Under the pieces are notes generated by a model that was given only the letters and a program-made list of their open reading frames with translations, was not told where the DNA came from and searched no databases. A stretch of DNA of 64,000 nt from Artemia franciscana. Taxonomy: Eukaryota > Arthropoda > Branchiopoda > Anostraca > Artemiidae. How positions within the stretch are numbered: the stretch's first letter is position 1; each line of letters begins with the position of its first letter. This document shows positions 6,001 through 63,948 of this stretch, piece after piece. Position numbers and translations under genes: made by a program. The stretch is from assembly GCF_032884065.1 (NCBI RefSeq), contig NC_088879.1, forward strand, positions 20,384,038-20,448,037, given 5' to 3'.

Positions 6001-6480
6001 GCAAAGAGCCGGAATGCTGGTTTACTGGTGAGGTCTAAACGCAGACATTGATCAGTATGTTCGTAGTTGCTTAAAATGTTCTAGAAACATGCCATCAAAC
6101 CAAAGAGAACCTATGATCAGTCAGGAATACCATGTCTTCCTTGGAAAAAAGTCGTATCCGACCTATTCACGCTCCACAATAATGACTATCTTGTAACAGT
6201 AAACTATCATAGCCGTTTTTTCGAAGTACACAAACTCAGCTCCACTACGTCAAAGTTCTTCATCTCCAAACTCAAATTTCATTTCGCCAGATATGGCATT
6301 TCATCGATACTAATATCTGACAATGGCCCTCAGTACTCTTCGGTTGAATTTCAAGGTTTTGCCAGGACATGGGGATTCACTCACAGTACATCAACTCCAA
6401 TTTATCCCCAGTCCAACGACCTTGTCGAAAAGACTGTCCATACAACAAAAAGCCTCGTGACAAAGGCATCAGAAAACCAC
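3070..6480 (+). mobile_element. Gypsy (Ty3)-type LTR retrotransposon fossil, Mag/K02A2.6-like
   Basis: Seen: an LTR-like end with an AATAAA ending near 3,195, directly followed by a primer-binding site (3,196-3,213) that fits the 3' end of a leucine tRNA. Then, in the usual order: a gag remnant (about 3.25-3.8 kb), a protease remnant with a TGA-type active-site motif (about 4.1-4.3 kb), reverse transcriptase with an IDDIL motif (about 4.4-5.2 kb), RNase H (about 5.2-5.6 kb) and an integrase zinc-binding region and core (about 5.7-6.48 kb). The element is clearly broken, with more than half a dozen interruptions, and no second LTR was recognised, so it is an old copy. The clade is from memory of the family's RT and integrase style. 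Confidence 0.8.
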
Positions 6481-6484
6481 TGAA

Positions 6485-6739: not shown

Positions 6740-9700
6740 GACCAAAGTCTCCTGCCGGGCGCTGCTTGGCGTAAAGAGTGATGTCTGCCTCCTCCATCTG
6801 CTTCAATATCTGGCCAGTATTTGCTATTCACCCTGTCTAACGTTTGCAATCGTCAAGAACTCGGACAGGCTGTGCCAACGTCTCTTCGGTTGGCTGCGAG
6901 GCCACTTCCAACCGGCTTTGATAGGATTAAAGTCGTAAATCATATTGGCGGGTAGATGTGGTGGCATTCGAAGCAGGTATCCGAACCATCGTAAGGTTCG
7001 CTCGGCTGCTTGAATTGAAAACCGAAACTACTTTGTGAGCTTCAGAAGCCTCTCATTGCTGACGAATTTGCACCATCATAGGCCCTCGATCCTCCTCAGG
7101 CTCTTCGCATGAAATACGTCGATTTTCTTGCGGATTGCAGCTAATACTTGCCATGTCTCAGCTCTGTAAAGCATCACAAGGCCGACTAGAGCGTTGAAGA
7201 TCCGCAGTTTCGTTGTACGACTAATGTTTGGTTTCCAGTAGAGGTGACGATTCAGTCTGCCCATGACGGAAGACGCTTTGGATGATTTCGCTTGGAGCTC
7301 AGGGAGAAGCGAGCCATTTGAAGAAATTATGGAGCCCAGGTAGGTAAAGTCTTGGACAACTTCGATGCCAGTGGTGCTGTCCAGTCTAACTGGAGAGTTA
7401 AAAGAAGGAAAAGACAGGTCTATGGCCGTAATTTTAGTTTTGTTCCAGTTTATATGCAGTCCTACTTTAGCAGCCTCTTCTCGAAGAATTTGGAGTGCTT
7501 CCAGCAGCTATTCCTTGGAGTCCGCCAGAATGGCCAAGTTATCGGCAAAATCAACATCCGTGATGGCACAATCTCCGAATCTGGGCCCAAAGCTGAGACG
7601 TGAAGTGGTTTTTGTCATAATATAATCTACGATGACATTGAATAGCTCTGGGGCCACTGCACATCCTTGGCGCACCCCTGTCGTGATTTGAAAGAACAGG
7701 CTGCGCCGACCATTTACTTGTACACAGCTCTCCGTCCCATGGTGCAGTGCCTTGAAAAGTCTGCAGTATTTCTCGGGTAGGCCAGTCAATTCTAGTATCT
7801 GCCAAAGAGCTTATCGATCGACTGTGTTAAATGTAGCACGGAAGTTGACGAAGGAAATAAATGTTTTCTGTCGGAGCTCTGTGGTAATCTCTACTGGTCT
7901 TGCTCCGAGACCGGAGCAAGACCAGCTTGCTCCGGTCGCCGAATTTTTCGAATGATATTCCGACATGGATCCAGCATGACCATTGAAAACAGTTTGTCAG
8001 GGACTGACAGTAGGGCTACTCCCCGATAGTTGGACCAGTCACTTCTTAAGCCTTTCCTCTTCCATAAGGGGATGATAACACCCTTACGACAATCCTCGGG
8101 TATCATCTCTGTTTGCCAGATTGTAGAGAACAGGGTATAGAGGAACAAGAGCATTGCAGCACCTCCATATTTTAGCAGCTCTGAGCTCAAGCCACAGATA
8201 CACGCAGCTTTATTATTCTTGAGCCTTTTTACTGCATATCCGATTTCTGAGGGGCTGAAAGGATCATCTGGAAGAGCATCTGTTTCAGGTTTTTGACTGC
8301 AAGGTTAGCTGAAACTATCATGAGGAGACACAGACGGGTTAGTATTGTTGAGGAGCGAACAGAGGTGGTCCTTTCACCGGTCAAGACAAGAACCTTCATC
8401 AGAGAAAAGTGTCCCATCCCTGGACAGGGCGGGACCCAAGGTAGGAATTTTATTTTCCGTGAGGTCTCGGCGATGCTTGAATAGGCTAACTATATCTTTC
8501 GTTTTTGCAGATAGTTCAATTTTGTCGGCTTTCCTTGCAACAAACCGGGTTCTATCCCGGTGAATGAGTCTGTTCCTTACTTCATTGAGCCTTCGATATG
8601 TGGTCATATCCCAAGAAGTCTTGCCTTCCGTCTTCCCTCTATGACTTGCAGTGTTTTATTTAGTTAGCCATGATTTCTTTTTGTAGCTCCTCTTGCCAAG
8701 CACTAGTTGTGCTGCTTCGCTAGTCTGCGATTTGAAATACTTCCAGAGATGTTCGCTGCTATTAAGTGAGCCAAGGGGTTCGAAATGATTCGATATCTCA
8801 ACACTGTACTTCAGACGAGTATCTGGCTCCTTTAGTCTCCCAATATCTGCAGTGACAGGTTTTCTTTCCGATCGTTGCGCATGGATGCAAAGCCGGAGAT
8901 CGGTGCACACAAGCCTTTGGTCTGCGTTTCCAAGCTCTGCTGGTCTGTAAATTTTGCAGTTCTTCACCAATGATCTCCAGCGCTTGGAAATAATGACAAA
9001 GTCAATCACCTTCTTTGTACTACCGTCTTTACTATACCATGTGTACTGATGAATAGTTTTACGTTGGAAGTAGATGTTTGCGATGCAAAGGTCGTGAGAT
9101 CGGCAGAGTTCAAGTAAGCGAAGCCATTTGTCGTTAAGTGGGTCGAAGAATACAGGACTAACTGTGCCGCGCCATACACCCATATCATCGCGCACTGTCG
9201 CATTTAAATCACCAAGAAGAACAGTTATGTTATGGGAGGGGGGGGCACTGTTGCAAGGAATCTAGACAAAGCAGAGTAGAAGTCCTCCTTAGTCACATCA
9301 CCAGAATCGTTGGTCGGGGCAGAGCTTACATAACAGTCATCTTGCCATGCTTGTGTCCAAAGCGGGCATTCATTAATCTGTCAGATACAGCTTCGTATAG
9401 AAGTAAGGCCTTTCTTGTAAGGCTATTTAGCGCAAGGCCAGTGCAATTCCTTCTCGTGTTTCCTTCACACCAGAGCAATGAGTTACGGTTACCTATTCAC
9501 TCTTCTCCACTTCCGGTAAGACAGGTTTCTGTAAGACTCACAATCGACACTTTATTCTTGCAAATTTCTTCGGAGAGTAGGTTCTTTGACGCAAGTGCAT
9601 TCAGAGTCAAAACATTCCAAGTGGCTGTTTGTAGCCCCCTTTGGTCCATGAGGTTTGGTCTGTCAGTCTTTCTGACGTCGTCAGCATGTTCGTTGACGCG

Positions 9701-22145: not shown

Positions 22146-24238
22146 TCATACAGTTCATGGTAACGAACTGTAGTAAGGAGCGACCCGGCTCAATAGTAAA
22201 CAAAACTTTAAGGAACGGAGTTTTTATACCAATAGTTACATCAGAACAATTGCATTTTAATGCTGATTTTAAATATATAAGTTTCATCAAGTTTAGTCTT
22301 ACCCATCAAAAGTTAGAAGCCGGAGAAAATTTGCACTATTTTAGAAAATAGGGGAAACACCCCTTAAAAGTGATAGAATCTTCAGATTCAGAAATCTGAA
22401 TCACACCATCAGATTCATTGTATCAGAGAACCTCAAAGTAGAAGTTTCAAGCTCCTATCAACAAAAATCAAAATTTTGAATTTTTTGGCACAAAACAGAT
22501 CACGGATGCATGTTTATTTGTATTTTTTTGTTTTTTGTTTTTTTTCTAGGGGTGGTCGTATTGACCCAGAGGTCCTAGAATGTCGTGAGAGGGCTAATTG
22601 TGACGGAAATTAAAAGTTCTACTACTCTTTTTAAGTGATCAAAAATATTGGAGGGCACCTAGGCCCCTCCAACGCTCAATTTTTCCCAAAAGTCACCGGA
22701 TCAGAATTCTGAGATAGCAATTTTATTCATCATAGTTGAAAAACCTACTAACTATGTCTTTGGGGACGACTTACTCCCCCAGAGTACCCGTGGGAGAGGC
22801 TTCAAGTTACGAACTTTGATCAGTGTTTACATATAGTAATAGTTATTGGGGAGTATACAGACATCTTCAGAGGGATTTTTTGGTTGGGGAGAGGGGTTGA
22901 GGGGAGGGGGTTATGTGGTGGGAAATTTCAATGGAGGAATTTGTCGTGGGGGAAGACAATTTCCATGAAGGACTTTTGTAATTTGTATTTTTGCCACAAG
23001 ACAGATCAAGGATGCGTGCTTATTTGTTTTTTAGTTTTTCTGTGTGTTTTTTTTTCCCAGGGGTGATCGTATCGACCCAGTGGTCCTAGAATATCGTGAG
23101 AGGGCTTATTGTGACGGAATTAAAAGTTCTAGAACCCTTTTTAAGAGACAAAACATTGGAGGGCACCTAGGCCCCCTCCCACGCTCAATTTTTCCCAAAA
23201 GTCACCGGATCAAAATTCTGAGATAGCCATTTTATTCAGCATAGTTGAAAAACCTAATAACTATGTCTTTGGGGACGACTTACTCCCCCACAGTACCCGT
23301 GGGAGAGGCTTCAAGTTGCAAACTTAGACCAGAGTTTACATATAGAAATGGTTATTGGGAAGTAAAAAGACACCTTCGGGGGGATTTTTTGCTTGAGGGG
23401 AGGGGTTGAGGGAAGGGGGCTATGTGGGGGGAAATTTCAATAGAGGAATTTTGTTACGGGGGAAGAGAATTTCCATGAAGGGGGCGCAGCATTTTCTAGC
23501 ATTAAAAAAAATGAAAAAGTTTTTTAACTGAAAGTAAGGAGCAGTATTAAAACTTAAAACGAATAGAAATTATTACGCATGTGAGGGGATCACCTCCTCC
23601 TATTACCTCGCTCTTTACACTAAAGTACTTTTAGTAATTTAAACTATTTATTCTACGGCCTTTGTGATTCAGGGGTCATTCTTAAGGAAAAGGGACACAA
23701 TTTAAGCTTTAGTGTAAAGAGCGAGGTATTGACGAGGAGGCGAACCCCCTCGTATACGTAGTAAAAAAATACAAATATAGAAGTTCGGTACGTAAGTTAA
23801 TTCGTAAGTTACTTATATACAAAATAACTAAGTAAGTTACTAAAAAATAAGTAAGTTACTTATAATAAACGTTTGTAAAAAATTAAAAGTTCTAGTTGCC
23901 TTTATAAGTAACCAAGATATTTGAGGGTAACTAGGCCTCCTCCCAAGCTCCTTTTTTCTCAAAATGTCCGATCAAAACTATGAAAAAGCCATTATCTAAA
24001 AAAAAAATTAATATGCAAATTTCCAAATATGCAATAGCAAAAATCAAAATATGCATTAATTCAAAAACGCTCAGAAATTAAAGAAAAAAAAACAAGTTGT
24101 TTTACGCTCTTTACGCTTAGCGTAAAGAGCGGGATCTTGAGGAAGGAATAGCCCCTTTCATATACGGAGTAATTTCTGTTCGTTTTCAGTTTTAATGTCG
24201 CTGCTTACTTTCAGTTAAAAAACTTTTTTTTTGTTTAA
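22146..24238 (+). mobile_element. Element X, copy X2 (plus), with internal duplication
   Basis: It begins TCATACAG (variant head) and ends GTTTAA before a T. It contains L3, P1 (about 23,520-23,770), L2 and a reduced P2. About 508 bases of L3 are duplicated in tandem (around 22,480-22,972 and 22,985-23,483), which makes this copy longer than the 1,751-bp copy X8. P2 has collapsed to a 13-bp perfect hairpin at 24,105-24,131 plus the right arm. X1 and X2 stand head to head, 147 bases apart. Confidence 0.85.
24105..24131. repeat. Collapsed P2 palindrome: 13-bp perfect hairpin
   Basis: CGCTCTTTACGCT, one central base, then the exact complement. Full-length P2 copies carry these same words about 60-70 bases apart around an unpaired centre, so the left arm and centre have been lost here. 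Confidence 0.85.
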
Positions 24239-28787: not shown

Positions 28788-30310
28788 TCAAACAGTTCGT
28801 GCTAACGAACTGTAGTAAGGAGCGACCCGGCTCAATAGTAACCAAAACTCTAAAAAACGGAACTTTGATACCAATAGTTACAACAAAAGAATCGCATTTT
28901 AATGCTTAAGATAGAAAATAGGGGGAAACATCCCGTAAAAGTCATAGAATCTTAATGAAAATAACACCATCGGATTCAGCGTATCAGAAAACTCTACTGT
29001 ACAAGTTCCAAGCTCCTATCAACAAAAATGTGGAATTTTGTATTTTTTGCCAGAAGACAAATCACGGATGCGTGTTTATTTTTTTTTTATTTTTCCCAGG
29101 GGTGATCGTATCGACCCAGTGGTCCTAGAATTTTGCAAGAGGGCTCATTCGAACGGAAATGAAAAGTTCTAGTGCCCTTTTTAAGTGACCAAAAAAATTG
29201 GAGGGCACCTAGGCCCCCTCCCACGCTCATTTTTATCCCAAAATCGTCGGATCAAAATTCTGAGATAGCCATTTTATTCAGCATAGTCGAAAAACCTTAT
29301 AACTATGTCTTTGGGGACGACTTACTCCCCCACAGTCCCCGTGGGAGGGGCTGCAAGTTACAAATTTTGACCAGTGTTTGCATATAGTAATGGTTTTTGG
29401 GGAGTGTACAGACGTTTTCAGGGGGATTTTTTGGTTGGGAGGGGGATTGAGGAGAGCGGGTTATGTCGGGGATACTTTCCACGGAGGAATTTGTCATGGG
29501 GAAGAAGATTTCCATAAATGGGGCGCAGCATTTTCTAGCATTATTTAAAAAAACAATGAAAAAATAAATAGGCAAAAGTTTTTTCAACTGAAAGTAAGGA
29601 GTAGCATTAACTGAAAGTAAGGAGTAAAACGAACAGAAAATATTACACATGTAAGGGGTTCACCTCCTCCTAATACCTCAGTCTTTACGCTAAAGCATTT
29701 TTAGTAATTTCAACTATTTATTCTACGGCCTTTGTGATTCAGGGGACAAAATTTCAGATTTAGTGTAAAGAGCGAGGTATTGACGAGTGGGTGAACCCTC
29801 TCATATACATAATGAAAACGTACGAATATAGATGTTTGTTACGTAAGCTAATTCGTAAGTTACATATATCTTTTATTAATGAAAATGTTCGTAAAAACTA
29901 AAGTTCTAGTTGCCTTTTTAAGTACCCAAAAAATTGGAAGGCAACTGGGCCTCCTCCCCCTCCTTTTTTATCAAAATCATTCGATCACAACCATGGGAAA
30001 GCCATTTAGCCAAATAAATAAATATGCAAATTTCGCTTTAATTATTCATCTGCGGAGAGCCGAAATCAAAACATGGATTAACTAAAAAACGTTCAGAAAT
30101 TAAATAAAAAAACAAGTTTTTTAACTGAAAGTAAGGAGCAACATTAAAACTTAAAACGAACAGAAATTACCCCGTATATGAAAGGGGCTGTTCCCTCTTC
30201 AGCGCCCTGCTCTTTACGCTAAAGTTTTTACTGTTTTAAAAATTGGAGTTGAGAGAAAGAGTCAAACTTTAGCGCATAGAGCAGGGCGTTGAAGAGGGAA
30301 CAGCCCCTTT
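28788..30310 (+). mobile_element. Element X, copy X4 (plus), 3' truncated
   Basis: Head TCAAACAG preceded by A, hairpin CAGTTCG/CGAACTG, L3, P1 (about 29,580-29,810), L2, and P2 cut in its second arm after 'aacagcccc'. Part of L3 just after the first 130 bases is missing compared with X8. P2 arms share the copy-specific 'cttcagcgccctgctc' versus 'gagcagggcgttgaag', differing in one pair only. Confidence 0.85.
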
Positions 30311-30351
30311 TTTGCCGTAGCAAAAAACGTGTTTTTTGCCGTAGCAAAAAA
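30308..30351. repeat. Duplicated small hairpin at the broken end of X4
   Basis: 'ttttttgccgtagcaaaaaac' occurs twice in a row. Each can form a hairpin (GTTTTTTGC/GCAAAAAAC around CGTA). It begins exactly where X4 breaks off, so it may be the end of another element that joined or truncated X4. Confidence 0.75.
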
Positions 30352-30699: not shown

Positions 30700-32125
30700 T
30701 ATCTATAGCTTGTGCTTATTCTTCCCATCAAGTTCCATCCCGATCTCTCCACTCTAAGCGTTTTCCAAGATCTCCGGTTTCCAAGATTTCTGGTTTCCCC
30801 CTCCAGCTCCCTCCAATGACACCAGATCTGGTCGGGATTTAAAATGAGAGTCCTAAAGCACAAGATCCTTCTAAAGATCAAATTTCAATAAGATCGGATC
30901 ACCCGTTCGCAAGTTACAAATACCCCATATTTTCTAATTTGTCCTAATTACTCTGCCCCCAGCTCCATTAAAGAGAGCAGATCCGGTCCAGTTATTTCTG
31001 TCACACATCTTGGACTTGTGCTTATTCTTCCCACAAAGTTTCATCCTGATCTCTCCGCTTTAAGCGTTTTCCAAGATTTCCAGTCCCCCCCCCCAATGAC
31101 ACTGAATCCGGTTGGGATTTAGAATAAAAGATCTGTATAAGAGTTACGATGTCCTTCTAAATATGAAATTCCATTAAAACCCGATCACTCCTTCGTAAGT
31201 TAAAAGTACCTCATTTTTTCTAATTTTTTAGAATTAATCTTCCCCCTCCCCAACTCCCCTAAAGAGAGCGGATCCTTTCCGGTTATGTCAATCACGTATC
31301 TAGGACTCGTGCTTATATTTCCCACCAAGTTTCATCCTGATCCCACCACTCTAAGCGTTTTCCAAGATTTTAGGTTCCCCCCCCCAACTCACTCCAATGT
31401 CACCAGATCCGGTCAGATTTAAAATAAGAGATCTGAGTTACGAAGTCCTTCTAAATATGAAATTCCATTAAGACCCGATCACTCCTTCGTAAGTTAAAAG
31501 TACCTCATTTTTTCTAATTTTTTAGAATTAATCTTCCCCCTCCCCCAACTCCCCCAAAGAGAGCGGATCCTTTCCGGTTATGTCAATCACGTATCTAGAA
31601 CTTGTGCTTATATTTCCCACCAAGTTTCATCCTGATCCCACCACTCTAAGCGTTTTCCCAGATTTTAGGTTCCCCCCCAACTCACTCCAATGTCACCGGA
31701 TCCGGTCAGATTTAAAATAAGAGCTCTGAGACACGATATCCTTTCAAATATCAAATTTCATTAAGATCCAATCACTCCTTCGTAAGTAAAAAATCTAATT
31801 TTTTTCAAATTTTTCAGAATTAAACCCCCCTCCCCAACTCCCCCAAAGAGAGCGGGTTCATTCTGGTTATGTCAATCACGTATCTAGGACTTTTGATTGT
31901 TTTTACCCACCAAGTTTCATCCCGATCCCTCCACTCTAAGCGTTTTCCAAGATTTTAGGTCCCCCCAAACTCCCCGCGATGTCACCGGATCCAGTCGGGA
32001 TTTAAAACAATAACTGTGAAACACGAAATCCTTCTAAACATCAAATTTCATTAAGATCCAATCACTCCTTCGTAAGTTAAAAATACCTTTAGAATTTTTA
32101 GAATTACCCCTCCTCCCTCCCCAAC
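30700..32125 (-). repeat. Tandem array S1, about 290-bp unit, about five copies
   Basis: The marker 'cttcgtaagtt' (revcomp 'aacttacgaag') recurs at about 30,904, 31,191, 31,484, 31,778 and 32,068, spacings 287-294. Each unit also has 'ccaagtttcatcc', 'ctctaagcgttttccaagat', a run of C, 'tcaccRgatccggtc' and 'tcaatcacgtatctaggac'. It is the same unit as S2 (50.9-53.1 kb) in the opposite direction. No protein is encoded. Confidence 0.92.
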
Positions 32126-32149: not shown

Positions 32150-32449
32150 TTTGTTTGCAAAAAAAGTTTTTTTTTAAATGAAAGTAAGGAGCGACATTAA
32201 AACTGAAAACGAACAGAAAAATTATATCGCGTATGAAAGGGGCTGCTCCCTCCTCATCGCCCCGCTCTTTACGCTAAAGTTTTTTACTGTTTTAAAAAGA
32301 AGAGTTGAGAGAAAGAGTCAAACTTCAGCGTAAAGAACGGGGCGTTGAGGAGGGAACAGCCCCTTTCACATACGAACTAATTTCTGTTCGTTTTAAGTTT
32401 TAATGTCGCTCCTTACTTTCAGTAAAAAAAACTTGTTTTTTTTATTTAA
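32150..32449 (+). repeat. Element X fragment X5: full P2 palindrome with 3' end
   Basis: Both P2 arms are present (about 32,180-32,272 and 32,320-32,420), around 'gttttaaaaagaagag', ending TTTATTTAA followed by T. L2, L3 and head are absent. It lies directly against the S1 array. Confidence 0.85.
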
Positions 32450-34588: not shown

Positions 34589-35312
34589 TTAAATAAAAAA
34601 GCTATATTTTTTAAACTGAAAGTAAGGAGCGACATTAAAATTAAAAACGAACTGAAATTATTCTGTATATGAAAAGGGCTGTCCCCTCCTCAAAGCCCCG
34701 CTCTTTACGCTAAAATTTGACTCTTTGTCACAACTCTACTCTTTAAAACAATAAAAAACTTTAGCGTAAAGAACGGGACTTTGGGGAGAGGACAGCCCAT
34801 ATACAGAACAATTTCTGTTCGTTTTAAGTTTTAATGTCGCTCCTTACTTTCAGTTAAAGAAATATGTCTTTCTTATTTAATTTCTGAACGTTTTTGAATT
34901 AATGCAGGTATAGAGTTTGGCTCACCGTGCATGAATAATTAAAACAAAACTTGTATATTAAATTTAATTTTTTTTTTAAACTAACAATAACCTTATAATA
35001 ACCTAAGTTTGATTTTTGTTTCATTTGTTTAAGAATGACTCCTGAATCACAAAGGCTATTTAATTAGAACAATAGCCTCTTTTAAAAGTTAAAAAGAAAC
35101 TTTAACATAAGAGCGAGCTACTGAGGAGAGGCAACCCATCTCATATACGTAATGTTTTTTGTTCATTTTAAGTTTCAACGTTGCTTCTTACTTTCAGTTG
35201 AAAAAAACTTGTCTTTTATCTGATTGTTGGTCGTTTGGGAAATCCAACTCCCCTTCAATGGAAAATTCCCATCCCCCGTGAGAAATTATCCATGGAAAGA
35301 TTCTCCCACGCA
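34589..35312 (-). mobile_element. Element X, copy X6b (minus), 5' truncated
   Basis: Read in reverse it ends TTTATTTAA followed by T. P2 is complete (34,610-34,860), then L2, P1 and the start of L3, ending near 35,312. The P2 arms share a variant, 'ctgtatatg' on one side and 'catatacag' on the other, where most copies have 'ccgtatatg'. Confidence 0.82.
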
Positions 35313-35699: not shown

Positions 35700-36584
35700 T
35701 CGAACTTTAGCGTAAAGAACGAGGCAGTGACGAGTCAATACCTCGCTCTTTACGCTAAATTTGGAATTTTGTTCCAGTTCTTTAAAAATGACCCCTAAAT
35801 TTCAAAGACCGTTTAATCAGAATAAATAACTTTTTTTGAAATTACTAAAAATACTTTAACGTAAACAGCGAGGCATTCATGAGGGGACAAACCCCCTCAT
35901 AAACGTAATAACTTATGTCCGATTTAAGTTTTAATGTTACTCCTTACTTTTCAGTTGGAAAAACTAATTTCTTTTAATTTAATTTCTGATCGTTTTCACC
36001 ATGAATAATTCCTCCATGGAAAGATCCTCCCCCATAGCCCAATCCCCCCAGAATATGTCTGTATACTTACCAATAACAAATACTATATGTAAACAATGGG
36101 CAAAGTTCATAACTTGCAGCCCTTCCCCCGGGGACTGTGGGGGATTAAGTTGTCCTCAAAGACATAGTTATTAGATATTTTGACTATGCTGAGCAAAATG
36201 GCTATCTCAAAATTGTGATCTGGTGACTTTGGTAAAAGGTGAGCGTGGGAGGGAGCCTAGTTGCCCTTCAATTTGTAGGTCACCTAAAAATGGCACTAGA
36301 ACTTTCAATTTTCGTTCAAATAAGCCCTCTCACGACATTTTAGAACCACTGGGTCGATACGATCACCCCTGGTAAAAAAAATTTAAAAAATTCCACATTT
36401 GTGCACATAGGAGCTTGAAACCCAGTAGAGTTTTCTTATGCGCTGAGTCTGATGGTGTCATTTCCATTAATATTCTATGACTTTTAGGGGGTGTATCCCC
36501 TTTTTTCCAAAATCAGGCAAATTTTCTCAAGCTCGTAACTTCTGATGTTTAGGACCAAACCTGATGAAACTTTTATATTTAAAA
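35700..36584 (-). mobile_element. Element X, copy X7, 3' part (minus)
   Basis: Carries part of P1 and most of L3 in reverse. It stops at AAAA (36,581-36,584), where copy X8 is inserted, and resumes at 38,336. P1 has collapsed at 35,706-35,759 to 21-base arms with two mismatches. The stretch 35,460-35,520 ('cgttttaagtttgaatgttat...cctta') is a further X scrap. Confidence 0.85.
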
Positions 36585-37538
36585 TCAAACAGTTCGTGGT
36601 AACGAACAGTAGTAAGGAGCGACCCGGCTCAATAGTAACCAAAACACTAAAAAATTGAATTTTGATATCAATAGCTACATCAAAAGAACCGCATTTTAAT
36701 GCTGATTTTAAATATATAAGTTTCATCAAGTTTAGTCTTACCCATCAAAAGTTACGAGCCTGAGAAAATTTGCCTTATTTAGGAAAATAGGGGGAAACAC
36801 CCCCTAAAAGTCGTAGGATCTTAACGAAAATCTGAATCTGATGACACCATCAGATTCAGCGTATCAGAGAACCCTACTGTAGAAGTTTCAAGCTCCTATC
36901 TACAAAAATGTGGAATTTTGTATTTTTTGCCAGAAGACAAATCACGGGTGCGTGTTTATTTGTTTGTTTTTTTTTGTTTTTTTTTTCCAGGGGTCATCGT
37001 ATCGACCAAGTGGTCCTAGAATGTCGCAAGAGGGCTCATTCTAACGGAAATGAAAAGTTCCTTTTTAAGTGACCAAAAAAATTGGAGGGCATCTAGGCCC
37101 CCTCCCACGCTCATTTTTTTCCCAAAGTCAACGGATCAAAATTTTAAGATAGCCATTTTGTTCAGCATAGTCGAAAACCATAATAACTATGTCTTTGGGG
37201 ATGACTTACTTCCCCACAATCCCTGGGGGAGGGGCTGCAAGTTACAAACTTTGACCAGTGTTTACATATAGTAATGGTTATTGGGAAGTGTACAGACGTT
37301 TTCAGGGGGATTTTATTTTGTTTGGGGGTGGGGCTTAGGGGAGGGGACTATGTTGGAGGATCTTTCCTTGGAGGAATCAATCATGGGGGAAGAACAATTC
37401 AGTGAAAAGGGCGCAGGATTCTCTAGCATTACTATAAGGAAACAATGAAAAATAATTATGAAAACGTTTTTTCAAATGAAAGGAAGAAGTAGCATTGAAA
37501 CTTAAAACGAACAGAGATTATTACGCATATGAGGGGTT

Positions 37539-37616
37539 CTAAAAATACTTTAGCATAAAGAGCGAGGTATTTAGGAGGAGATAAATACCTTGCTCTTTAT
37601 GCTAAAGTATTTTTAG
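37539..37616. repeat. Snap-back palindrome inside P1 of X8
   Basis: Arms 37,539-37,573 and 37,582-37,616 (35 bases each) are reverse complements with one mismatch and an 8-base spacer. The left arm is extra sequence compared with other copies of P1. Confidence 0.9.
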
Positions 37617-38059
37617 TAATTTCAACTATTTATTCTACGGCCTTTCTGATTCAGGGGTCATTCTTAAAGAATTGGGACAAAACTTACGATTTAGTGTAAA
37701 GAGCGAGGTATTAACGAGGGTACAAACCCCCTCGTATACATAATAAAAATATAAGGTTATGAAAGTTTGTTACATAAGTTCATTCTTAAGTTACGTATAT
37801 TTTTTACTAATAAAAATGTTCGTTAAAAATTAAAAGTTCTAGTTGCCTTTTTAAGTAACCGAAAAATTGGAGGGCAACTAGGCCTCATTCTCCACCCTTT
37901 ATTTCTCAAAATCGTCTGATCAAAACTAAGAGAAAGCCATTTAGCCAAAAAAAGAATTAATATACAAATTTCATTTTAATAATTTCTGTGCGGAGAGCCA
38001 AAACCAAACATGCATTAATTCAAAAACGTTCAGAAATTAAATAAAAAAAAAACCAATTT

Positions 38060-38320
38060 TTTTAGCTGAAAGTAAGGAGCGACATTAAAAATTAAAACGA
38101 ACAGATATTGCTCCGTATATGAAATGGGTTATCCCCTCCGCAATCCCTCGCTCTTTACGCTAAAGTTTGACTTTTTGCCACAATTCTACTTTTTAAAACA
38201 ATTAAAAGCTTTAGCGTAAAGAGCGAGGGATTGCGGAGGGGACAACCCATTTTATATACGGAGTAATATCTGTTCGTTTTAAGTTTTAATGTCGCTCCTT
38301 ACTTTCAGCTAAAAAACTTA
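38060..38320. repeat. P2 palindrome of X8, about 105-bp arms
   Basis: The left arm (gaaagtaaggagcgac...ctctttacgctaaag) is mirrored by the right arm (ctttagcgtaaagag...gtcgctccttactttc) around about 40 unpaired bases. This copy's variants (ctccgcaatccctcgctc and cagatattgctccg) have matching changes in the other arm (gagcgagggattgcggag, cggagtaatatctg, with one mismatch in the latter). Confidence 0.92.
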
Positions 38321-38335
38321 GTTTTTTTTATTTAA

Positions 38336-38458
38336 TCAGCATAAAAATCAAATTCTTTAGATGTATCTATTGATATCAAAATTTCTTTTTTTTAGAATTT
38401 CGGTTTCTATTGAGCCGGAACGCTCCTTACTTACAGTTCGTTACAGCGAACTGTTTGA
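38336..38458 (-). mobile_element. Element X, copy X7, head part (minus)
   Basis: The remainder of X7 after the X8 insertion: TCAGCAT..., 'tattgagccggaacgctcc' and the head hairpin, ending GA at 38,457-38,458. The next base is the first base of the X9 3' end. Confidence 0.88.
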
Positions 38459-39690
38459 TTAAATAAAAACAAAACATGTTTTTTCAGCTAAAAGTAAGCA
38501 ACAAAACAAAAACTTAAAACGAACAGAAATTATTAAATACATTAGGGGTGTTGCCCCCGCCTCGACACCTCGCTCTTCACGCTAAAGTTTTTTTAGTAGC
38601 CTACTTTTAAAAATGCTTCTTACTGTTCTAATCAAACGAGCCTTGTGTTTCAGGAGCCATTCTTTAAAGATTGGGACAAAACTTTAGCGTAATGAGCTAG
38701 GAGTTAAGGAGGGGGAAACACCCCATATATATGTGGTAATTTCTTTTTGTTTTAAGTGTCAATATAGCTCCTTACTTTCAGCTGAAAAAAAGTTAATCTA
38801 AAGGGTTTTTTATATAATACCAAGAAATCCGGCTCCGCTTCCACGGACCCCCCCCCCCACGGAAAAATCCTCTAGAAAACTTAATCATGGTGAAAATTTC
38901 CCCCGGACAACTATCTTTACACTCTCCATGCGTAAGATTGAGTCGAAAAGAGAAAGCAAGACATATAAAAAGAATTTCGTATAGGAATTCTGGCGAATTC
39001 GCTCAGTGAAAAATTCTCCCACGTAATCCCCCAGCGGAAAAGTCGTCTCTCCTTACCCGGAAAATGAATGAGGGGTCATGTTATCTACAAATGCATAGCT
39101 ATTGGGTCTCTCAGCGATGCTGAACAAAATAGCTATCTAAAAATTTTGATTGGAAGATCTTGGGAAAAATTGGTATGAGAGGGTACCTAGTTGCCCTCCG
39201 ATCTTATGGGGAACTTAAAAAGGTGCTAGAACTTTTAATTTCTGTTCGATTGAGCTTTCTTCCAATTTTATAGGACCAATGGGTCGATACGATCCCCTCT
39301 GAAAAAAATAAATAAATACGCGTCCGTGATTTTTCTTCTGGCCGAAAATACAAAATTCCACATTTTTGCAAATAGGAGCTTGAAAACTCTACAGTAGGGA
39401 TATCTGATATGCTGAATTTGAGGATGTGATTTCTTGATGGTTTAATTATTAAGATTCTTTGACTTTTAGGGGGGGCGTTTCCCCCTTTTTCAAAAATCAG
39501 GCAAACTTTCTCAGACTCGTAGTCTTTGATGGGTAACGCTAATCCTAATGGATCTCATATATCTGGAATCAGCATAATAAGTCATTTTTATATATATGTC
39601 TATTGGTATCAAAACTCCTTTTTTTATAGTTTTAGTTACTATTGAGCCGCGTCACTTCTTACTTACAAGTCGTTACCACAAACTGTTTGA
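38459..39690 (-). mobile_element. Element X, copy X9 (minus), diverged
   Basis: It starts with TTAAATAAA (the reversed 3' end) and finishes at the reversed head CTGTTTGA at 39,690. Its palindrome region keeps a P1-like centre (tgtttcaggagccattc), L2 is missing, and L3 is clearly more diverged than in X8. Read on its own strand, its 3' end runs directly into the 5' end of X7. Confidence 0.82.
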
Positions 39691-43165: not shown

Positions 43166-44575
43166 TGTGATAAAAGAGTTTCTTAAATATGGCGACTCTG
43201 AGGTTAGAAATAAGCTACTGAAGATTATGAATATGACTTTTGAAAGATAAGGGGAACCACCTAATTATTTTAGGAAAACCTTAATTAAACCACTGCATAA
43301 AAAAGGTGACAAGAGTGAATGTCGTAATTATCGAGGCATTAGTCTGGTCTCTGTAGGCAGCAAATTACTTAGTAATACGATACTTTTTTAGACTGAGAGA
43401 TGCTGAAGACAAAGTTTTAAGAGAAGAACAGTGCGGTTTTAGAAAAGGTAGAGGATGTGTCGACCAAATTTTCACTCTTAGGTTGATAATTGAGAAGTAC
43501 CTTTGTTGTGAAACGCCTTTGGTCCTCAGTTTTATAGGTTATGAGCAAGCGTTCGATTTTGTTGATAAAAGAGCTTTAGCAAAGGTCTTATCCTTAAATG
43601 GTATTCCAGACAAATACATTAGGGTGATTTGTGCTATTTACGAGAATAATACTGCTGCGGTTAAGGTAGGAAATGAGGTTAGCAACTGGTTTTGTATTAA
43701 ATCAGGAGTTAAACAGGGTTGTGTTCTACCCCCCCCCTTTATATGGATCATTTTGAGGCAATTGGAGAGCACAGAATCAAATGGGGAGGAAAAACTCTCC
43801 TGGACTTATATTATGCTGATGATTTAGGCACATTAGATGAAAGTGTGAGCAAAATGAATGAATTTTTAGAGATTTTGCGAGTTCAGGATGCTAGAATAGG
43901 TTTGAAAATTAATGTTAGGAAGACTGTCGATAAGGCAAGGAATAAGTGAAGACGAAAAGATGACGTTGGGTAACGCAAAGATTGATCAGGTGGACAGCTT
44001 CACTTATCTTGGCAGTATTATTAGTAAAGACGGTGGGAGCAGTGAAGATGTTAAAAATAGAATAGCCAAGGCTCAGGGTGTTTTTTCACAGTTAAAAAAA
44101 AGTTTGGAAGAATAGGAAGATAAGTCTGCAAACCAAGATTAAAATATTGGAAGCTACAGTGATGAGAGTGGTCAAATGTGGCTCTGAAGCATGGGCGTTC
44201 CGAAAATCAGATGAAAATTTACTAGATGTTTTCTAGAGAAACTGCCTACGGATTGTTCTGGGTACCTGGCAACCCCGCTTCTTAGGGCTATAATGAAAGA
44301 AAGGTTGCGATGATTCGGCCACGTTCTGCAGATGAGGGATGACAGATTGCGAAAGATTGTCCTTTTTGGCCATCCGTCTGGGGCTAAACGGAAAGCAGGT
44401 CGTCCTTGTCTGGGGTGGGAGGATGTCATAAATAAAGATTTATAGGAAATAGGAACTTCCTATAAGGGTTTAAAGAGGGAGGCCTTGAATAGATTGAGTT
44501 GGAGAAGGAGCGTGCGTAGCTGTGTTGGCCTCAGGCGGCTTGGTGTTGCGGTGAGTTATTAGTAGTAGTAGCAGT
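43166..44575 (+). mobile_element. LINE-B: EN/RT LINE, 5'-truncated, with (TAG)n tail
   Basis: RT region in order: CRNYRGISLVSVGSKLLS near 43,320, EEQCGFRKGRGCVDQIFTL near 43,425, EQAFDFVDKRALAKVLSL (motif A) near 43,540, SGVKQGCVLPP (motif B) near 43,705, YYADDLGTLDESVSKMNEF (motif C) near 43,815 and FTYLGSIISKDGGSSEDVK near 44,005. The C-terminal tail runs to 44,550 (RRSVRSCVGLRRLG). At least four frame breaks, so inactive. It ends in TAG repeats. The endonuclease domain is absent. The style is RTE-like; the clade is from memory. Confidence 0.88.
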
Positions 44576-50934: not shown

Positions 50935-52260
50935 TTATTATTTTTGATTGCACTTGGTATTAACCAAGTGATATATAGCAATCGCAAATTCTGTCGGTCT
51001 GTCTGTCGGTCCCGGTTTTGCTACTTTAGGCACTTCCAGGTAAGCTAGGACGATGAAATTTGGCAGGCGTATCAGGGACCGGACCAGATTAAATTAGAAA
51101 TAAATGTTTTCCCGATTTGACCATTTGGGGGGGAGTGGGGGGCCGGTTAATTAGGACAAAAATAGAAAAAATGAAGTATTTTTAACTTACGAACGGTTGA
51201 TCAGATCTTAATGAAATTTGATGTTTGGAAGGATATCGTGTCTCAGAGCTGTTATTTCAAATCCCGACCAGATCTGGTGACATTGGGGGGAGGGGGTTGG
51301 GAGGGGAAAACTTAAAATCTTGGAAAACACTTAGAGTTGAGGGATCGGGATGAAACTTGGTGATAAAAATAAGCACAAGTCCTACATACATGATTGACAT
51401 AACCAGAACGGATCTACTCTTTTTGGGGTATTTGGGGGGGGGGGGGGGGTTAATCCTGAAAAATTAGAAAAAATGAGGTATTTTTAACTTACGATCGGGT
51501 GATTGGATATCAATGAAATTTGATATTTAGAAGGATACCGTGTCTCAAAGCTCTTATTTCAAATCCCAACCGGATCTGGTGACATTGGGGGGAGTTTGGG
51601 GGGGGGCCTAAAATCTTGGAAAACACTTAGATTGGAGAAATAGATTTCTTAGATTGGGATGAAACTTGGTGGGGAAAATAAGCAGAATTTTTAGATACGT
51701 GATTGACATAATTGGAACGGATCCGCTCTATTGGGGGGGGGGGAGTGTTAATTCTGAAAAATTAGAAAAATGATGTATTTTTAACTTACGAAGGAGTGAT
51801 CGGATCTTCATGAAACTTCATATTTAGAAGGACCTTGTAACTCATATCTCTTATTTTAAATTTCAGTCGGATCCAGCGTCATTGGGGGGGGGGGGAAATC
51901 TTAGAAAATACTTAAAGCGGAGAGATCAGGATGAAACTGGATGGGAAGAATAAAAACCTGTCTAAGATACGTGACTGACATAACCGGACCAGATCTGCTC
52001 TCTTTGATGGAGTTGGGGGGAGGGGAGTAATTCGGAAAAATGAGGCATTTGTAACTTATGAAAGGGTGACCAGATCTTAATGAAATTCGATATTTAGAAG
52101 GATCTTGTGCTTTAAAGCTCTAATTTTAAATTCCAACCCGATCCTGTGACATTGGGGGGAGTTGGGGGGGGGGGGTAAAAAGTAATTCTTGGAAAACGAG
52201 AAAATTGGGGTATTTTTACCCCAATTTACCCGGAAAACGTGATCGGATCTTAATGAAAAT

Positions 52261-53218: not shown

Positions 53219-55870
53219 AGATAAGATAAGAGATAAGATTTATTCATCACGAAACACACATACAATATTACATTTTACTATTTCCCCAAAGGCTCTTTGG
53301 CCTGTAAAAAAGGGGAAAATGAACGAGCCACTTACTCAGAGAAGAAAAAAAAAATAATCACTTACTCACAGAGAGAAGAGCAAAAAGGAGAAGAGAGGAA
53401 AATATTAATAAAATGAAAAACTATAGAAAACAAAAGTAAATAGACTAATAGATTGAAGAGACTAAATTAATTATGTAGATCTGTAGACAAAATAGACTCC
53501 AATGAAATAATGAGGAAATATATATGCATACATACACGCATATACACATATAAAAAGAGATAAAATAATTTCTAAGAAGCCAATGAATTTTTAATAATTT
53601 TTTTGAACAAACCGAATGAGTGGCACCTTCGAGCTGATTCGGGCAACTTATTCCATACAATATAACTCGCAATTAAAGGATTAAAGTCTGACCTTACACA
53701 AGGAGTATAAGGAACTTGAATATGATTTTCGGTATTGCGAAGATTATAATTATTCTGATCAGAGGTGAAAGATGGCTGAACAGTTAGGGGACGGGGGAGG
53801 TCACCATGAAGCTGAGAAAAAGTAAAACATGCACACGAAAGAATATACAGTGACTCGAGATCAAGTAATGGGATAACTCTTGCACGGTTAGTTTCCTTAA
53901 TGAGGTTTCTAGCTTTATTATAAACCTTAGAAAGTGGTTTTAACAGTGAAGGAAAGGTTGACATCCATACTATTGGACAGTAGGAAACGTAAGATCGGAT
54001 CAAGGAGTGAAAAAGGATTTCCAAAATTGATCCAGGGAAAATATGTTTGAGTTTCCTTAAAATACCAAGACTCCTGCATATCTTCATTTTAATCAAATCA
54101 ATGTGACACTTGAAAGACAAGTTTTCATCAACAAGAATGCCCAAAAAACGAACATATCGATCTTTAGATCTGTGAATTATCCCATTTGGCTGATGAATTT
54201 CTGATAACTTGGAATAAATCTGAGAAACATGCGAAAATATCAAAAAATTGGATTTTGAATAATTTAGAGTAAGAAAATTAGCATCAAGCCATGAAATTAC
54301 TCTCTCAAACAAGTATTCCAAGTTTAATCGAAGCTCGGATTCACAGTTCCCCGAAGTGCCAAGTGTGCTATCATCAGCAAAACAAACAAGGACATCAGAA
54401 GATGGCGAACTATAGCTGGCACTATGGGTAAGGGAAGGTTTAGGATGAGAGAGTCTACAGCAATGAATAGGTTTCTGCTTTTTTACTGCGTAAAAAAGAT
54501 CATTTATATAAATCAAAAATAGCACTGGCCCTAAAACTGATCCCTGAGGGACGCCAAAATTCACTTGTGATTGACAGAAATTAAATTGTGGATTGAGAGA
54601 AATTAACCTATCATTCAAATAAGATTGAAACCAAGAAAATACATTACCCCTAATGCCAAAATGAGACATCTTCGATAGAAGAATTTCATGAGTTAAGGAA
54701 TCGAATGCCTTGCGAATATCCAGGAATATAGCAGCCGGAATTGATCCCGAATCCAATTCAGAATGTATAAAATTCAAAAGGGTCATACATGCATGCTCAG
54801 TGGAGTGCTTCATTCGGAAACCAAATTGAAAATCATGAAGAAACTCTTTAGATTTTAGAAATTTAAGCAGACGAGAAAGCATAGCCTTTTCGAAGATTTT
54901 ACTAAATACTGATAAAATTGAAATTGGTCGATAATTTGCTGGATCATTTCTTGGTCCACCTTTATACAGAACAATAATCCGAGCACGCTTGAGAGGATCT
55001 GGAAAAACCCCTTATTTAAATGAAAGATTAACAAGTTTTGTAAGAGGCACAACTATTGAAGGAAGAATAGATTTAACTACCTTAGTAGGAATAGAATCTG
55101 GCCCAGATGAAGATGAGTCTTTCAAGCCATTAACTATTTTAGTAATTTCAATTTCTGTTACTGGCTCTAGAAACATAGACTTAACACAAGACGGCCCGAG
55201 GTAAGATCTAAAGTCCGACTTAGACCGAGATAAAGTAGCTGTGGAAGCGATATTATTACCAATACTAGCGAAAAATGAAGTAAATGCTTCTTGGACATTA
55301 AGCTCACCCTCTACAGTCTCATCACTAATGACCAGACTCATAGGTAAAGAGCTATATTGAGAACCAGGTTTAAGCACAGAATTTATTACCTTCCAAGTTT
55401 TACGAATATCCTTATTACACGCAGCAAAATTATTTAGATAATAGAGAGAATTGGCTTTCCTACACACGGAATTATATATATTCCGGTAAATCTTGAATTG
55501 ACAAAGACGAATAGCACTCGTTGAAAGTGTAGCGCATTTATAATACCTCCAGAGATTATTTTTCCTTCTCCAGCTTTTGAGAAGTCCGGATGTCATCCAT
55601 GGGTTTAGAGGAATAATCCTTTTAGACCTGCGATTAGAAGGTGGTACTTTACAAATGCTAAGAATAGCCTCTTTTATGGTTCCATAAAACGACTCAAATA
55701 AACAAGAAAAATCCTTGTCATTATCAAATAAGCTCCACGAATTTTTCGCTAATTTAGAACCAAGAAGAGATAACTCATTCTCACCAAACCTAATAGAATA
55801 GGAATCAAACACTTGAGCCCGGTTATTCCTTCCCCGATTAAAACTGAACCGAGAATTGTCGTAGTAACTT
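53219..55870 (-). mobile_element. LINE-C: CR1-group LINE, 5'-truncated, nearly open ORF2
   Basis: On the minus strand one frame runs from about 55,863 to the stop at 53,572-53,574, broken only by one in-frame TAA (55,012-55,014). The part before RT includes NPWMTSGLLKSWRRKNNLWR and SSSGPDSIPTKVVKS. RT: NYRPISILSVFSKIFEKAM near 54,920, AIFLDIRKAFDSL (motif A) near 54,720, FGVPQGSVLGPVLFLIYIND (motif B) near 54,550 and VCFADDSTLG (motif C, catalytic DD intact) near 54,370. A CR1/Crack/Daphne-like C terminus ends KKIIKNSLAS. The 3' UTR has a CCAAAG/CTTTGG hairpin (53,286-53,300), then AATAAA and a TCTTAT repeat tail ending at about 53,219. The endonuclease is missing. It appears younger than the other LINEs here. 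Confidence 0.9.
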
Positions 55871-56045
55871 CGGGAGGGACTCATTCGATTGGGAATCAAA
55901 TGTTTTAGTTCCCTTTTTAAGAGTCAAGAGTGATTGGACGGCAAGCAGAGCAACCCTCCCTTACCCCCACCCTGGCCGGTTATTCCAACAAAGACATCCG
56001 ATAAAAATATTGAGATAGCCATTTTGTTCAGCATAGTTGACAGCC
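55871..56045 (+). mobile_element. Element X fragment X12 (plus), old
   Basis: Matches mid-L3 of X: 'ggactcattcgattgg', 'agttccctttttaagagtca', 'ttggacggcaagcagag', 'ttgagatagccattttgttc' and 'agcatagttgacagcc'. It abuts the 5' truncation point of LINE-C, so the LINE may have inserted into it, although no X sequence was seen on the LINE's other side. Confidence 0.7.
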
Positions 56046-60397: not shown

Positions 60398-62017
60398 TTA
60401 AATAAATAAAATAGTTTTTTGTTAACTGAAAGTAAGGAGCGGCATTAATACTTAAAACGAACAGAAATTACTCCGTATATGAAAGGGGATGTTCTGTCCT
60501 CAACGCCCCGCTCTTTACACTAAAGTTTTTTACTGTTTTTAAAAGTAGAGTTGAGAGAAAGACTCAAACTTTAGCGTAAAGAGTGGGGCGTTGAGTTGCG
60601 AAGTAATTTCTGTTCGTTTTAAGTTTTAATGCCACTCCTTACTTTCAGTTAAGAAAACTTGTTTTTTTTAAATTTAATATCTGAACGTTTTTGAATTAAT
60701 GCATGTTTTGATTTTGGCTCTCCGCGCATGAATAATTAAAACGAAATTTGCATATTAATTTATTTTTCTGGCTAAATGCCTTTCTCATAGTTTTGATCGG
60801 ACGATTTCAAGAAAAAAAGAACGGGGGAGGAGGCCTAGTAACCCTCCAATTTTTTGGTTACTTAAAGAGGCAACTAGAACTTTAAATATTTTACGAACGT
60901 TTTTATTAGTAAAAATATACGGAACTCACGAATTAACTTACGCAATGAAATTTTATATTCGTATGTTGTTACTACGTATATGAGGGGGTTTGCCCCTTCG
61001 TCAATACCTCGCTCTTTACACTAAAGCTTGAATTTTGTCCCAAATCCTTAAGAATGACCCGCGAATCACAAAGGCCGTAGAATAAATAACTGAAATTACT
61101 AAAAAAGAACATTAGCGTAAAGAGCGATGTATTAGGAAGAGGTGAACCCCTCATATACGTAATAATTTCTGTTCATTTTAAGTTTTAATGTTGCTCCTTA
61201 CTTTCAGTTGAAAAAAACTTTTTCATATTTTCTTTTTTTAAATGCTAGAAAATCCTGCACCCCCTTCATGGAAATTCTCTTCCCCCATGACAAATTTCTC
61301 CATGGAAGGTTCCCCCTACATAACCCTCTCACCTCAACCCCTCCCCTCAACCAAAAAAATCCCCCTGAAAACGTCTGTACACTTCCCAATAACCATTACT
61401 ATATGTAAACCCTGGTCACGGTTTGTAACTTGCAGCCCCTCCCACGGGGACTGAGGGGGATTCAGTCGTCCTTAAGGACATAGTTATTAGGTATTTCTAC
61501 ATTGTTGGATAAAAGGGCTATCTCAGAATTTGGATCCGGTGACTTTGGGGAAAAAATGAGCACAGGATGAGAGCCCCCTCTCATCCTTAGAATGAGCCCC
61601 CTCCGACATTCTAGGAACACTGGGTCGATACGATCACCCATGGCAAAAAAACAAAAAAAAAAACAAAAAAAAAACGAATAAACACACATCCGCGTTTATT
61701 CCACGTCTTGTAGATAGGAGCTTGAAACTGCTACTGTAGGGTTCTCAGATACGCTGAATCTGGTGATGTGATTTTCGTTAAGATTCTATAACTTTTAAGA
61801 GGTGTTTCCCCCTATTTTCTAAAATAAGGCAAATTTTCTCAAGCTCGTAACTTTTGATGGGTAAGACAAAACTAGATGAAACTTACATATTTAAAATCAG
61901 CATTAAAATGCCATTCTTTTGATGTAACTATTGGTATCAAAATTTCGTTCTTTAGAGTTTCGGTTACTATTGAGCTGGGTCGCTCGTCACAACAGTTTGT
62001 TACCATGATCTGTTTGA
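60398..62017 (-). mobile_element. Element X, copy X13 (minus), 1,620 bp
   Basis: Both ends are present: reversed 3' end TTAAATAAA at 60,398 (the neighbouring host base gives T after the 3' end) and reversed head CTGTTTGA at 62,016-62,017. P2 spans about 60,418-60,655 with part of the second arm deleted, then L2, P1 (about 60,965-61,200) and L3. The head hairpin is slightly decayed. Confidence 0.88.
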
Positions 62018-62439: not shown

Positions 62440-63948
62440 TCAAACAGTTCGTGGTAACGAACTGTAGTAAGGAGCGACCCGGCTCAATAGTAACCAAATC
62501 GCATTTTAATGCTGATTTTAAATATATAAGTTTCATCAAGTTTAGTCTTACCCATCAAAAGTTACGAGCCTGAGAAAATCTGCCCTATTTTAGAAAATAG
62601 GGTGAAACATCCCCTAAAAGTCATAGAATCTTAATGAAAATCACACCATCAGATTCAGCGTATCAGAGAACCCTATTGTACAAGTTCCAAGATCCTATCT
62701 ACAAAAATGTGGAATTTTGTATTTTTTGCCAGAAGACAAATCACGGATGCGTGTTTATTTATTTATTTTTTTTTTTTTCCCAGGGGTGATCATATCGACC
62801 CATTGGTCCAAGAATTTTGCAAGAGGGCTCATTCGAACGGAAATGAAAAGTTCTAGTGCCCTTTTTAAGTGACAAAAAAAATCGGAGGGCACCTAGGCCC
62901 CCTCCCACGCTCATTTTTTTCCCAAAGTAGTCGGATCAAAATTCTGAGATAGCCATTTTATTCAGCATAGTCGAAAAACCGTCTGTACACTTCCCTCCGT
63001 CTGGTTGGGTGGGGGTTGAAAAGAGGGGGCTATGTGGGGGAAATTTTCCATGGAGGAATTTGTCATGGGCGAAGAAGATTTCCATAAAGGGGGCGCAGCA
63101 TTTTCTAGCATTATTTAAAAAAACAATGAGAAAATAAATACGAAAAAGTTTTTTTCAACTGGAAGTATAGAGTAGCATTAAAAATATTACGTATATAAGG
63201 GGGTTCACCTCCTCCTAATACCTCACTCTTTACGCTAAAGGATTTTTAGTAATTTCAACTATTTATTCTACGGCCTTTGTGATTCAGGGGACAAAATTTC
63301 AGCTTTAATGCAAAGAGTTATTGACGAGGTATTGACGAGTGGGCGAACCTTCTCATATACGTAATAAAAACATACGAACATAGAAGTTTGTTACGTAAGC
63401 TAATTCGTAAGTTACGTATATCTTTTACTAATGAAAACGTTCGTAAAAACTAAAAGTTCTAGTTGCCTTTTTAAGTACCAAAAAAATTGGAGAGCAACTG
63501 GGCCTCCTTCCCCTCCTTTTTTCGCAAAATCATTCGATCAAAACTATGGGAAAGCCATTTAGCCAAATAAATAAATATGCAAATTTCACTTTAATTATTC
63601 ATCTGCGGAGAGCCGAAATCAAAACATGGATTAACCAAAAAACGTTCAGAAATTAGATAAAAAAAACAATTTTTTTTAACTGAAAGTAAGGAGCGACATT
63701 AAAACTTAAAACGAACAGAAATTACCCCATATATGAAAGGGCTGCTCCTTCTTCAACGCCCTGCTCTTTACGCTAAAGTTTTTACTGTTTTAAAAAGTAG
63801 AGTTGAAGAGAAAGAGTCAAACTTTAGTGCAAAGAGCAAGGCGTTGAAGAAGGAGCAGCCCCTTTCATATATGGGATAATTTCTGTTCGTTTTAAGTTTT
63901 AATGTCGCTCCTTACTTTCAGTTAAAAGAACTTGTTTTTTTTATTTAA
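62440..63948 (+). mobile_element. Element X, copy X14 (plus), 1,509 bp
   Basis: Head TCAAACAG follows AAAAA and the end TTTATTTAA is followed by TACGATCC, so the flanks share no obvious duplication. Compared with X8 it has small deletions in L3 (at about 62,498 and 62,980). P2 arms carry a private matching change: 'accccatatatg' on the left and 'catatatgggat' on the right. X13 and X14 stand head to head with 422 bases between them. Confidence 0.9.

Follow-up and report, generated by a model that had tools for sequence, protein, structure and literature searches.

A repeat of Artemia franciscana with Helitron-like features and a long 3' palindrome present in both orientations

How does a repeat that starts with TC, ends with TTTAA and sits inside another copy of its own family move through a genome? 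This question is raised by element X8, located in a stretch of 64,000 nucleotides of Artemia franciscana DNA that was analysed as a whole (the window; positions given without a locus name refer to it). An initial annotation of the window described X8 as interrupting a second copy, X7, with both junctions readable, proposed exact termini and insertion between A and T, and compared the element with Helitron/Helentron-type non-autonomous elements.

Element X8, its family and its anatomy

To the left and right of 36585-38335 the sequence is X7 in minus orientation, confirming that X8 interrupts it. Both junctions indeed lie in X7; as TC is common to X8 and its right flank, the border is ambiguous by 2 bp and this junction does not fix the ends on its own. 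The features of X8 and of its relatives in the window are:

36585..38335, plus strand: X8, full-length non-autonomous element of 1751 bp, TCAAACAG...TTTATTTAA, inside X7; 97.1% identity to the 1746-bp consensus
36590..36609, plus strand: 5' hairpin, CAGTTCG-TGGTAA-CGAACAG in X8 (CGAACTG in most copies); z -2.3, 5/200 shuffles fold as well
36611..36623, plus strand: 5' subterminal inverted repeat AGTAAGGAGCGAC, an exact match of 13 bp linking the two consensus ends; 0/2000 shuffles
37461..37745, plus strand: decayed internal palindrome related to P
38037..38335, plus strand: P, 3' terminal palindrome of 299 bp, consensus arms being exact 128-bp inverted repeats; -132.3 kcal/mol versus -27.8 for shuffles, z -26, 0/200 shuffles as good
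38166..38208, plus strand: asymmetric loop of P, 43 nt, unflipped in X8
38291..38303, plus strand: 3' subterminal inverted repeat GTCGCTCCTTACT; distance to the 3' end 32 nt in X8 and 33 nt in the consensus
38336..38458, minus strand: 5' part of X7 (head at 38458), target of X8
35734..36584, minus strand: X7 continued past X8
38459..38794, minus strand: P-like unit joined head to tail with X7, its tail TTTATTTAA lying directly against the X7 head
62440..63948, plus strand: relative with both ends (= X14), P loop flipped, arms co-changed
60398..62017, minus strand: relative with both ends, P loop unflipped
22146..24238, plus strand: relative with both ends
28788..30311, plus strand: relative, match ending within P
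34589..34880, minus strand: P unit from a minus-strand relative, flipped loop
32160..32449, strand not given: P unit without a recognised X body

The window also contains two tandem arrays (30778-32088, units of about 290 bp; 51125-52161, units of about 302 bp) and, identified by eye, reverse-transcriptase-like frames and other retroelement pieces at 53572-55923 (minus strand), 43357-43827 (plus), 7076-9261 (minus) and 4608-6483 (plus).

Searching the 1.27-Gb genome with X8 as query yielded 10,986 first-look candidates, of which the best 40 were scored. Our sample consists of the 39 scored copies other than X8, each fetched with 2 kb of flank per side, and, being the best matches of X8, it is biased towards the X8 subfamily and the X8 loop orientation. 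Two of these copies, L037 and L047, lack the standard head and show unrelated sequence until about position 44 or 77. Copies L015 and L016 have their flanks in common and thus represent one duplicated insertion; likewise, L055 and L056 have identical or near-identical flanks, single insertions having been multiplied by duplication. The X family makes up 22% of the window and 19% of 156 kb of flanks, the latter being a biased sample, and from the value in the window X relatives may form a sizeable fraction of the genome, for which a published figure attributes 8.81% to Helitrons (PMC11492255). X8 contains no frame of at least 110 aa, a comparison of eight window frames with Pfam gave no match, and exact patterns had 0 matches in the viral collection.

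The consensus was built from 36 sequences, with the copies being 94.9-98.5% identical to it, and runs from TCAAA through the 5' hairpin, the 13-bp repeat, an A/T-rich body and the decayed palindrome with a repeated body segment to the 299-bp P. The subterminal 5' hairpin recognised in the initial annotation holds up, its stem (consensus positions 6-25) being mostly kept among divergent heads, and the 5' subterminal repeat follows on the inside of it at positions 27-39. A short stem at the 3' terminus is no better than shuffles (z -0.24). The second palindrome and the repeated segment suggest that two elements were joined long ago to form X, perhaps by read-through into a neighbour.

Termini, target preference and empty sites

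The termini TC...TTTAA recur throughout the family as annotated. Aligned from position 1, 36 of the 39 copies start with TC at the expected place, a few of them with a substitution within TCAAACAG; the exceptions are the headless L037 and L047 and L039, which opens ATAAACAG. At the other end the copies finish with TTTATTTAA, so that the 3' end is indeed not of the CTRR type, and the base following TTTAA is T in all 34 readable tails (p = 2e-17 at a background of 0.323), a count that omits four copies with odd or cut tails and one of two duplicates. In X context, 82 of 82 TTTATTTAA tails are followed by T, with at least 32 of them carrying the body-side sequence of the inner arm of P. A genome-wide search for TTAGTTTTTTTTATTTAA followed by a base other than T, which covers this non-T class only, returned 42 exact matches (control: 2).

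The 5' side of the target is less strict. In the fetched copies TC is preceded by A in 22 cases, by T in seven, by G in six and never by C (n = 35), and over 65 profile-found heads in 304 kb, duplicates included, the corresponding numbers are 46, 9, 10 and 0, the 46 A being significant at p = 2.5e-10 (background 0.323). Positions -3 and -2 are mostly T or A, so that the target reads as T or A at these positions, preferentially A at -1 and T at +1. The counts originally made in the window were reproduced, with A preceding six of nine strong heads and T following all seven outer ends that reach TTTAA. Insertion between A and T as first proposed is therefore strict on the T side (34/34) and a preference on the A side (46/65), and with this wording the ends of X and its (A)^T insertion are real and well supported.

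A lack of target-site duplication had been noted for X14, and it extends to the family: when duplications of 3-8 bp were sought at every offset in 31 two-ended copies, the maximum excess was 4, compared with 3.0 expected from permuted flank pairs, on which grounds AATC or another duplication of 3-8 bp was rejected. The joined flanks of L015, L018, L021, L031 and L044 match uninterrupted relatives with about 69-86% identity, the matches running across the junction. The partners are window 191-14 for L031, window 38554-38676 for L021, window 8076-7969 for L044, X-family bodies for L018 and other sequences for L015, with small gaps near the junction in some of the L018 and L015 alignments. In one relative of L038 five bases are missing at the junction, where the border is uncertain as the tail is a T run, and the joined flanks of L030 matched an X tail. 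These paralogous empty sites, like the clean position of X8 in X7, are compatible with clean insertion, which, with T at both junctions, looks the same as a 1-bp duplication of T.

The 3' palindrome, its loop and its arms

As the initial annotation stated, X ends in a palindrome, which is perfect in the consensus over the last 299 bp (two 128-bp arms and a 43-nt loop). An origin of P as an independent insertion was ruled out because its body-side border is constant in the copies compared, and P is thus an integral part of X. The most unusual point, which the initial annotation had missed, is that P occurs in both orientations with co-varying arms.

The loop is flipped in L019, L028, L034, L035, L040 and L042, that is in five of the 36 copies first scored and in six of 38 tree copies once L019, the tail of which is truncated, and L016 were included; L037 and L047, which are outside the tree, have an unflipped loop. 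Two window relatives with both ends likewise differ in orientation (62440-63948 and 60398-62017). Using the 38 copies we calculated a tree with IQ-TREE from which P was excluded, and mapping of the flip label onto this tree required four changes, four being forced by the starred branches. None of 200 bootstrap trees (0%) allowed a single change, and the label is somewhat clustered, with 17 of 500 shuffles being as low. Genome-wide, the flipped configuration has 332 exact matches (172 + 160; control: 0), a number for the flipped class alone that gives no ratio, and those listed include several arm types; an unflipped P corresponds to the pattern GTTCAGAAATTAAATN{136,166}AAAACAATTAAAAG. As the arms are identical in the consensus, the extent of each inversion is unreadable.

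We then compared the arms of 52 palindromes at 92 arm sites with the X consensus as reference and scored changes as present in both arms, in a single arm or as discordant, these being counts of sequences and not of events. Divergent palindromes often had changes at matching places of the two arms. The flipped relative in the window (63659-63944) has 12 changes in both arms, two in a single arm and none discordant (12/2/0), and further examples are window 32161-32446 (9/10/1), L038:5123 (9/11/0) and L045:1081 (7/12/0); in contrast, mostly single-arm changes were obtained for L021:4560 (4/21/1), L018:1466 (4/16/3) and window 60401 (2/9/1). For the pair test 20 of the 52 palindromes were aligned, comprising the 12 outside the X8 type and eight of the 40 of X8 type. 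Changes on both sides were found in 28 of 87 arm pairs as compared to a mean of 12.2 in shuffles (0/500 shuffles as high) and to 6-10 when the arms were slid against each other, a control that favours a structure derived from the same sequences. The number of cells with a change on both sides was 93 versus 30.8, and 95.7% of the cells pair versus 91.1% in shuffles. Several old copies have at least as many changes in a single arm as in both, so that resting copies are apparently not homogenised. The persistence of these single-arm changes suggests that the arms are matched within the transposing lineage and not at rest.

Transposition of X and comparison with known systems

An autonomous partner was sought by three routes. 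A search for PF14214 gave 7,436 first-look candidates, 150 of which were scored and reached 197-205 bits. Two loci of this family, L048:576-6291 and L049 (minus strand), have 5,716 bp in common with 99.86% identity and contain a frame of 1,663 aa that includes Rep and PIF1 domains; their 3' end is CTAG after a GC-rich hairpin, and their 5' border, located by eye in AT repeats, is probably TC. Both reside in AT repeats, and one directly adjoins an X head. Their near-identity points to a recent burst of an autonomous Helitron. The abundant PF14214 family was ruled out as partner of X by its 3' end, and tblastn of the Rep/PIF1 protein against the fetched DNA gave no match in the window.

The second query was DUF6570 (PF20209), a candidate marker of partner loci, and it gave 47 matches from 59 candidates. 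L050, L051, L052, L053 and L054 are DUF6570-type Helitron-like loci with long frames of up to 2701 aa; L051 opens, as judged by eye, with a ubiquitin-protease-like stretch followed by basic repeats, and L050, part of which reads N, contains an X-body fragment with 69% identity. No X ends were present beside DUF6570 loci in five 5'-side or junction stretches, which stop short of the element termini. Finally, 21 X-type heads with foreign downstream sequence were found genome-wide, none of them within 15 kb of the DUF6570 loci when the lists were compared by eye, and the two that were examined are both internal-deletion forms of X with near-identical flanks. The initial annotation had asked for a Rep/helicase element sharing the ends of X, and the PF14214, DUF6570 and foreign-head searches revealed none, which counts against the explanation we favour; the partner may have died out, may have ends that have since diverged, or may have escaped these searches.

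On balance we nevertheless regard X as probably a rolling-circle element of Helitron-like, non-autonomous type that a putative HUH Rep/helicase mobilises in trans, with hairpin copying of its 3' end. The rolling-circle class is likely, and the hairpin mechanism is what we infer for the 3' end. The Rep would nick at A^TC, a single strand would be peeled away, and replication would stop at the hairpin that precedes TTTAA^T. In its single-stranded state the 3' end would fold as a 128-bp hairpin in which one arm could be templated by the other, through either a strand switch or self-priming and a subsequent second nick. As a result of this copying of arm from arm, lineages that transpose would retain identical arms, and the loop would occasionally be turned. 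Besides the missing partner, the absence of a 3' CTRR, the ordinary short 3' stem and the somewhat clustered flip label have to be counted against this explanation. In a bolder version, possible but less than probable, X would represent a eukaryotic rolling-circle family with a rolling-circle start and a rolling-hairpin end. Terminal resolution during transposition would then regenerate the long terminal hairpin, causing the 3' terminus to flip and the arms to evolve as one.

Ordinary recombination, be it between arms or between copies, could also produce flipping and co-change, and so could the assembly of palindromic sequence. Long inverted repeats can invert spacers, and a possible, if less than probable, reading is therefore that X is Helitron-like while its flips and co-varying arms are unrelated to transposition and reflect ordinary recombination or gene conversion of inverted repeats, taking place in double-stranded DNA either inside one copy or from copy to copy. 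The very high copy number makes exchange between copies plausible and the identical consensus arms hide the extent of inversion, but the arms are just 128 bp long and the unmatched single-arm changes kept in several old copies argue that resting copies are not efficiently homogenised. Mobilisation of X by a different single-strand HUH machinery (IS200/IS605-like Y1) or an unknown recombinase would fit the hairpins near the ends, the lack of a 3-8 bp duplication and the resemblance of the target (T-rich, then A, before T) to the 3' end TTTAA^T; we consider it improbable, as autonomous Helitrons are abundant in the same genome and the subterminal inverted repeat with hairpins is of the Helitron2/HINE type in the portions of the literature covered (PMC4067079, PMC3627910). 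That X is a foldback or DDE element duplicating a single T, or a TA/TTAA element with misread ends, is very improbable despite the T at both junctions, the foldback-like palindrome and the imperfect 5-base inversion TCAAA...TTTAA. Whatever the offset, no duplication of 3-8 bp stood out in 31 copies; duplications of TA or TTAA are contradicted by the 3' flanks, only 8 of 34 of which open with TA, and by the 19 of 65 heads that follow G or T.

What surprises in X is that its 3' hairpin flips and that the arms co-vary, and this makes a mechanism testable. To our knowledge, there is no settled view of the way in which the 3' end is recognised and completed by Helitron-type elements. With very many copies, the loop as orientation marker and the co-varying arms, flips per transposition become countable, and counting them would be a direct test of copying the 3' end through a hairpin; if this holds true, X would be an example of a rolling-circle transposon equipped with a long terminal hairpin. 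In the titles and abstract openings of the Artemia-repeat and Helitron-palindrome literature covered, no description of X or of a flipping Helitron end was found.

Canonical Helitrons insert at A^T without duplication. X shares with this class (Helitron1) the 5' TC (36/39 copies) and insertion at A^T without a 3-8 bp duplication, A being only preferred, whereas it ends with TTTATTTAA in place of CTRR and a short preceding hairpin. The Helitron1 loci L048 and L049 differ from X in their CTAG after a GC-rich hairpin and in encoding Rep/PIF1.

Among the relatives described in the literature, as far as the cited excerpts extend, HINE/DINE-1 elements (non-autonomous Helentrons) are non-coding and high-copy, with 11-15 bp subterminal inverted repeats, palindromes and no target duplication (PMC4067079, PMC7492417). 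X resembles them in all these respects, including a 3' repeat upstream of the end, but its 5' repeat lies 26 nt from the end and past the hairpin instead of 2-4 nt as in the mite families, its target is A-preferring ^T and not TT, and its 3' palindrome measures 299 bp and flips, whereas that of mite-family HINE has 5-10 bp. Helitron2 of Chlamydomonas and others is described in the excerpt as having a 5' T, a 5' hairpin, an asymmetric inverted repeat and, in short families, mostly no duplication (PMC3627910). X has the 5' T, the 5' hairpin, the lack of duplication and the asymmetric repeat, the 3' copy of which lies about 20-30 nt from the end in Helitron2; in contrast, its 5' hairpin is not built by the inverted repeat and its target is not TTTT^T/C. 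Taking both published groups together within the same excerpts, the 3' repeat of X at 33 nt falls between the ranges of 20-30 nt (Helitron2) and 38-60 nt (mite HINE), and a palindrome near the 3' end is present, of 299 bp as compared to a short stem. The 5' repeat is placed differently (position 27 with the hairpin at 6-25, versus 0-4 nt from the end in or next to the hairpin), and so is the target (A at -1 in 46/65 heads, versus TT or TTTT^T/C). FoHeli1 and FoHeli2 of Fusarium, in the part of their description covered, share with X the TC start, an A/T-rich end (ATTTT), a 12-bp inverted repeat, hairpins and a subterminal 3' repeat, located 38-51 bp from the end; they differ in their target TNAT^ and in being autonomous, and a long flipping palindrome is not described there (PMC5148889).

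From the Helitron/Helentron-type reading of the initial annotation we thus retain TC, hairpin, palindrome and clean insertion, whereas derivation from Helentrons in particular is at most a candidate reading, with no Rep partner found in the loci searched and two features deviating. Owing to the place of its 5' repeat and to its target, X is not filed as a HINE, although it would work like one.

Parvovirus terminal hairpins exist in flip and flop orientations and undergo terminal resolution. X shares with them a terminal palindrome found in both orientations, the arms of which are kept complementary, but it is a chromosomal repeat without long frames that carries its long palindrome only at the 3' end.
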